A stretch of 43,549 bases of DNA from Meiothermus sp. (lineage in GTDB: Bacteria; Deinococcota; Deinococci; Deinococcales; Thermaceae), in contig NZ_JANXCG010000017.1 of NCBI RefSeq assembly GCF_025060375.1, forward strand, positions 1 through 43,549, read 5' to 3'. Each line of letters begins with the position of its first letter. Position 1 is the first letter of the stretch. The notes below the pieces were generated by a model, which was not told where the DNA came from, searched no databases, and saw nothing but the letters and a program-made list of their open reading frames with translations. Shown piece by piece: positions 3,187 through 6,334 of the stretch. Both the position numbers and the translations under genes were made by a program.

Positions 3187-3909
3187 ATGCTGTTGGGTAT
3201 GGGGTTGTCGCTTTTTCCCTGGGCGCTTACGCTGCTGGGCCTGCTCCCCCTTTGGTTTTTCCCCCGACAGGAGAACCTCTACCCCGGCGTGCTGTTCCTC
3301 CTGGCGGCCCTTATACTGGCCGCTACGGCCAGCCTTTACGCGCGGGCTCCCCTAAGCTCCAGGGTGCGCTTTTTTTGGGTTCTGGGAATCTCCAGCGTAG
3401 CCGTTCAGGGGGCGCTTCTCGCCAGCGACGAGCTGGCCCAGCTGCCCGATGGCCTGGTGGTGACAGCTTCGGTGGCCGGCCTGGCTGCTCCCGCCCTTTT
3501 TCTCGCTGCCCTTTTCGTCCTTCTGAGGGGTGAGGGTTCTGGCTTGATGTCGGTGCAGGGCGAGGGGGTGTTGCCCCAGAGCGCTCTGCAGGCCTTGGCT
3601 CCGGGCCTCGAGGCCCTCTCGAGGGTACGGCCGGTGACGCTCCTCTTGCTCCACACGCATCCCGACCAGCCGGGGGCTGCCCTTTTGGGGTTTTTGCGCA
3701 AGCCGGACCTGGTCTTTGAACTAAAACCAGGGCACTTCCTGGTGGTCCTGCAGGGGAGCGGTCCGGAGGGGGCTCAGGTAGTCTTCCGCCGCATCCGGCA
3801 GAACCTGGCGATAAGGGCCTACGCCGTTTTGCCTCTCCAGGGCGCCCTTGGGCAAGCCTTGAGGCAGCTCGAGGGGGAGCTGGCCCACTACTACCTAACC
3901 CATCACTAA
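3187..3909 (+). CDS. Membrane protein with a degenerate GGDEF-like C-terminal domain
   Basis: The 240-residue product has about four to five hydrophobic segments in residues 1-120. The soluble C-terminal part follows GGDEF-domain layout: [20 protein letters not shown] matches the region where the family has its metal-binding Asp, and [16 protein letters not shown] sits where the GG(D/E)EF loop should be. That loop reads KPGHF, so diguanylate cyclase activity is not expected. The gene is divergent from rarA and its end overlaps the convergent aminotransferase gene by 15 bp. ATG 3199 is an alternative start; neither has a clear Shine-Dalgarno sequence. The domain match is by eye and moderate; a hypothetical membrane protein is the safe description. 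Confidence 0.55.
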
Positions 3910-5010
3910 CCCCAGCCTCTCCTCGAAAGCCCTCTCCAAGCCGCTCAGCCCCAGCACCTCCCCCAGCGCACGGAAGAAAACCCGGTAGTGCTCGGGGCGG
4001 GCGCTTTCGCCCATCAAGCCCAGCCGCAGCACCTTGCCGGCAGTAGGGCCAATGCCGCCAGCTACGGAAACCCCCCTGGCGTAGAGCCCTTTGCGAATTT
4101 CGGCCTCGTTGAGCCCCTTGGGGGGGCGCACCACCAGTACGGTGGGTAAGCGGGCCTCGGGGGCTGCGTAGGCGCTGAAGCCCAGCTCCTCCAGGAGCGA
4201 GAGCACCGCAGTGTACATCTGCTGAGCCCGCTTTTGCCGGTTCCCCAAGCCCTCTTCCAGGGCTAGCCGCAGGGCTTCTTCCAGGGCGTAGTGCAGCAGC
4301 ACCGGAGAGGTGCAGAAGTACCCTTCCTGCTCCCAGTAGACCGCTACCCGGGAGAGGTCGGAGTACCACCCCCGCACCTGACCCAAGCATTCCCGTCCTC
4401 GCTCGGAGAGGGCGAAGGGGGCTAGGCCGGGTGGGGCCGAGAGGCACTTCTGGCTGCCGGTAAAGGCGTAGTCTACGCCTAGCTGTTGCATGGAGAGGGG
4501 CATCATTCCGGCGGTGGTCACCGCGTCCAGCATGAAGAGAGCTCCGTGTTCCTGCACCAGGGGTGCGATGGCCTCCACCGGGTTTAGCACGCCGGTGCTG
4601 GTCTCGCCGTGCACCAGGGCCACCAGTTTGTAGGGGCGGCGCTTGAGCTCCTGAGCGACCGCCTGAGGGTCAATGGGATGGCCTGGTTCGGAGCGCAGCA
4701 CCCGGTAGTCCAACCGGTAGGCGTGGGCGATCTCTACCATTCGCTCGCCAAAGGTGCCGCTTACCAGCAGGAGGACAGGGTCCCCTTCATCGGCCAGGTT
4801 GGTCAGACCAGCCTCCATGCCCAGACTTCCCGAACCGGGCAGCGCAGCCAGCAAAGCCCCCTCGCCCGGATCGAATAGATGATTCAGGTAGTTGCGGATG
4901 CGTCGGTTGATGGCGAGCACCTCGGGGTCGAGGTGGCCGCGCATCTCCTTGCCAAGTGCAGCTTGGACCCGGGGGTGGATGGGGGTGGGGCCAGGGGTTA
5001 GAAGCACCAT
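3895..5010 (-). CDS. Class V aminotransferase (alanine/serine-glyoxylate aminotransferase-like)
   Basis: This 371-residue PLP enzyme belongs to the alanine-glyoxylate / serine-glyoxylate / phosphoserine-type branch of class V aminotransferases. It starts [13 protein letters not shown], the usual family opening. Asp162 ([10 protein letters not shown]) should contact the pyridine nitrogen and Lys188 ([12 protein letters not shown]) should form the Schiff base. Substrate cannot be decided from sequence: amino transfer between glyoxylate and alanine or serine is most likely. ATG 5010 is chosen because GGAGG lies 8 nt upstream; an in-frame TTG five codons earlier lies inside that ribosome-binding site. 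It has its own strong promoter and an unusually long folded leader, so expression is probably controlled at RNA level. Confidence 0.85.
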
Positions 5011-5168
5011 GCTCGTTTCCTCCAAAAAGAGGGTACCCCGCCGAGCAAACTCGCACGGCCTCTTCCCTGGGGGAAGAGCGCCGTCAGCGGGTAGCTCGAG
5101 CGGGGTGGCCGTTCATCGCTTTCCTTGTGTACCCCCTTCCAGCCTGGTTTGGATAGGGAGGCACCTCT
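5011..5168 (-). ncRNA. Folded 5' leader of the aminotransferase gene (candidate cis-regulatory RNA)
   Basis: The predicted transcript has about 158 nt before the start codon. On the minus strand an outer helix (5100-5106 with 5035-5041, seven pairs, ACCCCGC/GCGGGGT) closes a junction. Inside are a 13-bp hairpin with one bulged base (5055-5084), a small CGAG-TTTG-CTCG hairpin (5042-5053) and possibly a third weak one at 5086-5096. The Shine-Dalgarno GGAGG lies about 15 nt after the closing helix. I could not match it to T-box, TPP, glycine, SAM or cobalamin riboswitch consensus features. The helices are visible; regulatory function is inferred. Confidence 0.45.
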
Positions 5169-5174
5169 GCTCCG

Positions 5175-5203
5175 AATATACCTGGGGCTTTGGGGTTTGT
5201 CAA
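5175..5203 (-). promoter_or_regulatory. Strong sigma-70-type promoter of the aminotransferase gene
   Basis: On the minus strand the -35 box is TTGACA (5198-5203, perfect), the spacer is 17 bp and the -10 box is TATATT (5175-5180). Transcription should begin near 5168, leaving the long leader. Confidence 0.8.
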
Positions 5204-5263: not shown

Positions 5264-6334
5264 ATGAACGATTACTACGCAATACTGGGGGTTTCAAGGG
5301 ATGCCAGCCCGGAGGAGATCAAGCGGGCCTACCGCAGGCTGGCCCTAAGGTACCACCCCGACAAAAACCCGGGCGACAAGGAGGCAGAGGAGAAGTTCAA
5401 GCAGATCAACGAGGCCTATGCGGTGCTGTCTGACCCGGGGAAGCGGGCCCAGTACGACCGCCACGGCACGGTCGCACCGGCTGGAGGAGGGATGGGAGGT
5501 GTGGGAGACCTCTTTGACCTCTTTGAGCAGGTGTTCGGCTTTCGTTCCCCCGGGGGGGGACGGGCCCCGCGGGGTGAGGACCTCGAGGTGCGCCTCGAGC
5601 TCGAGCTTTCCGACCTGCTCCGCGACGGCGAGAAGGAGCTGGAGTACGACCGGCTGGTGCCCTGTGAGGCCTGTGGGGGCCAGGGGGGTCGGCGTGAGGT
5701 CTGCCGGAGCTGCGGGGGACGGGGGACCTTAGAGCAGGTACAGCATACCTTCTTTGGGAGCATGGTAGCCCAAGTGCCCTGCGGGAGTTGCCGTGGGCGT
5801 GGATACATTCTGAGAGAAAGCTGTGCCGCGTGTCGGGGCCGGGGCCGGGTGAGCCGCAAGGAGCGCATACGGGTTACCATTCCAGCAGGCATAGAGGAGA
5901 ACCAGCTCCTCAGGGTTTCGGGTTACGGCAACATTGGTCCGGGGGGGCCGGGGGACCTCTTTGTGCGCCCGGAGATCCGCCCACACCCCCACCTGGTGCG
6001 CCAAGGGGCCAACCTGGTCTATGAGCTTAGGCTGGGTCTGGCCCAAGCAGCGCTGGGGGCTCGGGTGCAGGTACCTGGTCTAGAGGGGGAGGTGGCCTTT
6101 GAGGTGCCCCCAGGTACGGGGGATGGAGAGGTTTTTGAGCTGGAGGGCTACGGCCTGCCCCGCCCCGGAGGCCGTGGGCGGGGCAGACTGCAGGTGGTGA
6201 CCCGGATTGAGGTGCCCCGCAACCTGTCCAAAAGAGCCCGCGACCTCTTGCGCCAGTACGCCCAGGAGGTAGGAGAGGAGGTGGCCCCAGAGGGGTTTTG
6301 GGAGAAGGTAAAGCGGGTGTTCAAAGGCCCGTAG
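5264..6334 (+). CDS. dnaJ: Chaperone DnaJ with zinc-finger domain
   Basis: This 356-residue type I Hsp40 stimulates the DnaK ATPase and hands over unfolded proteins. The J domain covers residues 1-65 with HPD at 31-33. A short Gly-rich stretch with [13 protein letters not shown] follows. Four CxxCxGxG repeats at about residues 128-195 bind two zinc ions ([32 protein letters not shown]). Beta-sandwich substrate-binding domains fill the rest. The well-known Thermus DnaJ that works with DafA lacks the zinc finger, so this is the zinc-finger paralogue type. No dnaK or grpE is next to it; the neighbouring csaB gene converges, three bases away. Confidence 0.95.

Follow-up and report, generated by a model that had tools for sequence, protein, structure and literature searches.

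Leader-peptide control by alanine has hardly been described in bacteria; the literature searched contained one proposed case, from Streptomyces. In Streptomyces lividans TK24, alaS is preceded by an alanine-containing leader peptide, AlaL, which has been proposed to act as an attenuator (PMC8079986). AlaL comprises 22 amino acids including six alanines, is actinobacterial and occurs before alaS only; its authors stated that the type had not been described before (PMC8079986). The leader analyzed here precedes a class V aminotransferase gene in a window of 43,549 nt (the whole stretch of Meiothermus sp. DNA under study), and resembles AlaL in its alanine-containing leader peptide, in alaS as a target, and in its proposed role as attenuator. 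Compared by description, the ORFs of Thermus-Deinococcus leaders differ from AlaL in being mostly 7–11 residues long and leaderless, and in preceding class V aminotransferase genes as well as alaS.

With the classical attenuators of trp, his, leu, ilv and thr genes, the leader shares a short ORF, control codons that fit the pathway, and a terminator that would depend on ribosome position. However, Thermaceae leaders lack a distinct antiterminator; since the 5' side of their terminator consists of the ORF, a stalled ribosome would take over that function. Moreover, one or two control codons take the place of a run of codons. Like an alaS T-box, the leader would respond to how far tRNA-Ala is charged and would regulate alaS through termination, but it lacks a T-box match in Rfam and would need translation of its ORF. 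A search of the literature, mostly of openly accessible papers, brought up no earlier report of such a leader for Thermus or Deinococcus. Relative to AlaL, what appears to be new in these papers is the phylum, the use of an aminotransferase gene as target, and the layout with one hairpin in which the ORF is the terminator arm.

Promoter and leader of the aminotransferase gene

The gene at positions 3895..5010 of the minus strand codes for a class V aminotransferase of the alanine/serine-glyoxylate/pyruvate type (371 aa), confirming its initial annotation. The closest named genome is that of Meiothermus luteus, whose protein is 96% identical; the nearest solved structure is chain 2YRI/2YRR. A dnaJ-type gene (5264–6334, plus strand) is divergent from the aminotransferase gene, and since the dnaJ start lies upstream in Thermus too, the pair represents an old neighbourhood.

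On the minus strand, a -35 box TTGACA (5198..5203), which most relatives keep as TTGACA or TTTACA, is followed after a 17-nt spacer by the -10 box TATATT (5175..5180). The combination matches the sigma-70 consensus at 11 of 12 positions and is the sole promoter site in the 3-kb region, where shuffled sequences gave a mean of 0.2 sites; its earlier description as near-perfect was apt. As judged from the position of the promoter, transcription would start near 5166–5168. This leaves about 158 nt between a start near 5168 and the ATG at 5010, in agreement with the leader length proposed before. The Shine-Dalgarno sequence GGAGG of the aminotransferase gene occupies 5019..5023 (minus strand). A 173-nt segment, beginning at the inferred start and reaching slightly into the aminotransferase gene, folded at -85.8 kcal/mol, as compared to -64.2 ± 4.5 kcal/mol for shuffled sequences (z = -4.8; none of 200 shuffles was as stable). 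The first 55 nt or so of the leader, part of which forms an extra hairpin (5129..5164, minus strand), are missing from most relatives. This stretch occurs in this Meiothermus only; a different sequence takes its place in M. luteus and in a few leaders of Meiothermus. The initial annotation had included neither this feature nor the ORF and the U-run described below.

A short ORF within the leader

An upstream ORF at 5084..5116 of the minus strand (ATG AAC GGC CAC CCC GCT CGA GCT ACC CGC TGA) encodes the peptide MNGHPARATR; its counterpart in M. luteus encodes MNSRPARATR. The Shine-Dalgarno-like sequence AAGGA (5122..5126, minus strand) is located 5 nt from its ATG, and use of an in-frame GTG at 5164 would lengthen the ORF to 26 aa. 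The ORF contains the near-invariant codon pair CGA GCT (Arg-Ala; 5093..5098, minus strand), and we propose its GCT (5095–5093) as a putative alanine control codon.

Orthologues were located across the order and their upstream DNA was inspected, with the frame set by CGA. An in-frame upstream ORF was present in 65 of 69 orthologue leaders, the exceptions being L050, L054, L065 and L068, and nearly all leaders share the core CGAGCTAYCC followed by a hairpin. Peptides encoded in relatives include MRFSARATL, MRLSARAIR, MRLLRAIR, MRLFVRATP, MTRSARAS, MSVTARAS, MFAAARATR and MLLTARA, and many of the ORFs have just one or two alanine codons. Among the non-redundant leaders, the ORF was found in the CGA frame in 56 of 56 and in the other two frames in none, a count partly conditioned by how the motif was found. 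Its stop codon (TAG in 22, TAA in 20 and TGA in 14 of these leaders) follows 2–6 codons past CGA, and 0–4 codons separate alanine from the stop. The leaders thus possess a predicted short in-frame ORF of the kind expected of a leader-peptide attenuator. A longer ORF, alanine-rich near its end (...SARAAQLAASEC, then stop), occurs in the leader L192 of an uncultured Deinococcales member. No such ORF was found near aminotransferase homologues of Actinomycetes MAGs, Nocardiopsis, Chloroflexota and Firmicutes.

The upstream ORF starts 6–9 nt past the best -10 match in 57 of 64 leaders, indicating that it is normally leaderless. The AUG found at the leaderless position in relatives is AGG or AAG in this Meiothermus and in M. 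luteus, where the ORF seems to begin from an internal AUG led by a Shine-Dalgarno sequence, 3' of the roughly 55 extra nucleotides.

The leader had initially been interpreted as a riboswitch or protein-binding junction without assignment to a known class. Indeed, no Rfam family, T-box and riboswitches included, matched the window at the gathering score or the leader at E values up to 10. The notion of a regulatory leader is borne out by its conservation and covariation, but support is lacking for a metabolite riboswitch or a junction that binds protein, since the core is the ORF, in frame throughout the non-redundant set. alaS is a common T-box target, and the strongly covarying structure and the conserved GAGCUA core would also suit a true riboswitch or a direct, T-box-like sensor of tRNA-Ala with GCU as specifier, the ORF being incidental. 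We regard this reading as highly improbable, not only because Rfam gives no T-box match, but also because a single frame is used with all three stop codons, the ORF starts at leaderless spacing, and the GCU context and the motif change while the alanine codons stay.

Terminator-like hairpin and covariation

In a long, imperfect hairpin made up of P1, P2 and the apical P3, the 5' arm coincides with the coding sequence of the upstream ORF, and a U-run comes right after the 3' arm. On the minus strand, the 7-bp closing helix P1 is formed by ACCCCGC (5100..5106), within the ORF, and GCGGGGT (5035..5041). The apical 13-bp hairpin P3 (5055..5084) begins about 12 nt past the alanine codon, and the U-run TCTTTTT (5024..5030) lies directly 3' of P1. 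Both helices are located where they had been placed initially, in a leader whose folding energy departs from that of shuffled sequences as given above. A regulatory junction acting at the ribosome-binding site, as proposed, is not supported, as the closing helix ends in the U-run and does not pair with the Shine-Dalgarno sequence. Judging from the sequence, P1–P3 plus the U-run is a terminator-like structure; a simple terminator scan missed it because its apical part is long. Relatives also have a U-run at this place, albeit a weak one in part of Thermus, so that a hairpin with U-run, as in a putative intrinsic terminator, is present in Thermaceae and allied leaders.

Alignment of the orthologous leaders, the check for compensatory changes suggested along with the initial annotation, revealed that the helices are conserved and covary beyond shuffled and slid controls. 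RNAalifold indicated changes on both sides at 10 of 17 pairs. In the Thermaceae set A1, 97.3% of the cells are paired, 10 of 17 pairs show double changes, and the covariation of 0.457 compares with 0.22 in shuffled and ≤0.19 in slid alignments. Set A3, a mixture of aminotransferase and alaS leaders, beats its controls less sharply than the Thermaceae set, yet is above all shuffles on score and percentage paired, its score being reached by none of 500 shuffles. When A3 was slid by +2, double changes were equal (9 pairs, 22 cells) and paired cells far fewer.

When the bases that a ribosome stalled at GCU would cover were masked, in silico folding no longer gave the stem beside the U-run in Thermaceae and the Deinococcales f5 family. 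In Trueperaceae-type leaders, the ORF is succeeded first by a single hairpin and, 3' of it, by a distinct terminator (GACC...GGTCGTTTTT), which the same masking left intact in silico; a search of these leaders for an antiterminator yielded no clear one. The Trueperaceae-type leaders L057, L059–L062, L146 and L190 have a common hairpin right past the ORF stop, GCGRUAC...GUAUCGC in several of them, followed by UGACC...GGUCGUUUUU.

alaS as second target

A covariance model, R1, was built from 29 sequences, the Meiothermus leader included. It matched this leader at 5024..5113 of the minus strand (80 bits, E = 1.5e-19, the sequence itself being in the training set), and the genome has no second strong match in sense orientation. 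Applied to 101 relatives, R1 recovered the leader of the aminotransferase gene from almost every member of the Thermaceae, and in 13 Thermaceae genomes it detected a second site (E<1e-4), each directly before alaS; a rerun over 111 genomes of the order had the same outcome. Weak matches (L114–L116, L118, L119) were discarded, since they lie in coding sequence or by unrelated genes, and antisense matches represent the same palindromic elements, not extra sites.

Direct inspection of the DNA upstream of alaS added three ORFs outside the Thermaceae, namely, MKHTARA (L152) and the Trueperaceae ORFs MLTCSTIKAAI (L146) and MTVLLPTQAA (L140). Four alaS leaders without CGA GCU, the two of Trueperaceae and those encoding MRASASAAS and MKPSSFAQATR, retain alanine codons; apart from the initiator methionine, alanine is the sole residue common to these four ORFs. 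Because the alaS leaders keep alanine codons, alanine is the common factor of both genes and of all clear ORFs. Its presence in every clear ORF, with alaS as second target, is what a control codon would lead one to expect, and the aminotransferase itself presumably makes alanine. Since the same element also precedes alaS, alanine would be sensed through tRNA charging and the ribosome. The amino-acid signal considered initially fits this picture, but bound glyoxylate, glycine or serine, for the same reason, fits less well.

In this Meiothermus genome, the alaS copy of the element has decayed. The alaS genes of Thermus (L129–L139) start 6–7 nt past a TATAAT box, without leader or element; their mRNAs look leaderless, which makes them a natural contrast to alaS of Meiothermus. 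Several Meiothermus and Calidithermus leaders contain a cassette, roughly 67 nt long and with AAAGCGATGAAACCCCTT at its end, between promoter and core, both before aminotransferase genes (L011, L014) and before alaS (L102, L105, L106, L112). The copies in the aminotransferase leader of G002 and the alaS leader of G009 match at 79%, which suggests that leaders have been copied between the two genes.

The occurrence of the element at two alanine-linked genes, and the persistence of alanine codons when the rest changes, also argue against an unregulated structure, i.e., a plain terminator or an RNA-stabilizing 5' hairpin whose ORF merely primes reinitiation at the main gene. Leader ORFs are able to raise translation via reinitiation, typically over a distance of 10–11 nt (PMC4833913). 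The stop codon of the ORF is about 70 to >200 nt away from the main start, too far for reinitiation as main function, which was rejected, and we consider an unregulated structure the least credible of the alternatives.

The codon pair CGA GCU

CGA accounts for 8% of the arginine codons and GCT for 15% of the alanine codons in the window. The genome lacks a tRNA-Arg with anticodon UCG, CGA being decoded through tRNA-Arg ACG only; its tRNA-Ala anticodons are GGC, UGC and CGC. The conservation of the CGA GCU nucleotides exceeds what a requirement for an alanine codon needs, and a pausing role of the fixed pair is possible. The near-invariance of two uncommon codons, one of them read by ACG only, might even point to nascent-peptide or codon-pair arrest, in which the ribosome is stalled either by the Arg-Ala end of the peptide or because tRNA-Arg(ICG) decodes CGA slowly beside GCU. 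The same hairpin would then respond to a small molecule, be it free alanine or a different compound, and not to shortage of Ala-tRNA. Both the arrest and such a response seem very unlikely to us, given that several alaS leaders have no arginine before alanine or no CGA GCU altogether, that the distance from alanine to stop varies, and that peptides of 7–9 residues reach little of the exit tunnel.

Proposed mechanism and implications

The DNA itself shows a short ORF, a hairpin structure, a U-run and the association with the two genes. From these we infer translation of the ORF, ribosome stalling, termination within the leader and dependence on alanine, and with high probability the leader attenuates transcription in response to alanine, by way of the ribosome. 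When Ala-tRNA is ample, the ribosome would complete the ORF and depart, allowing the hairpin to close; RNA polymerase would then terminate, and little aminotransferase would be formed. When charged tRNA-Ala is scarce, the ribosome would stall with GCU in the A site, over the 5' arms of P1 and P2, and its front should end at the start of P3, about 12 nt past the alanine codon. Under these conditions only the apical hairpin could form, and the polymerase would read through into whichever gene the leader precedes, that of the aminotransferase or alaS. Several observations count against this reading: CGA GCU is conserved beyond the need for an alanine codon, many ORFs have just one or two such codons, the U-run is weak in some Thermus leaders, masking leaves the Trueperaceae-type terminator intact, and the alaS copy of the element has decayed in this Meiothermus genome and is missing from Thermus.

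A narrower version of this alanine attenuator would be an order-wide system, with a leaderless peptide of 7–11 codons as terminator arm, in which CGA-GCU is a dedicated stalling signal and not a plain count of alanine; we hold this to be rather unlikely. The same low expectation applies to the stalling it would involve, whether by slow inosine decoding of CGA beside alanine or by Arg-Ala arrest.

Induction when alanine is short would make sense only if the aminotransferase forms alanine, e.g., from pyruvate, and does not consume it with glyoxylate; a role in alanine synthesis is inferred accordingly from the proposed regulation. The leader thus predicts a function in alanine supply for an enzyme that is structurally solved (nearest 2YRI/2YRR) and functionally undefined. 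Alanine-linked attenuation, as deduced from the sequences, would be conserved across the Thermus-Deinococcus order in a very small design, with a leaderless ORF as terminator arm. If the leader is an alanine attenuator, the aminotransferase, and often alanyl-tRNA synthetase too, would be made when alanine runs short.
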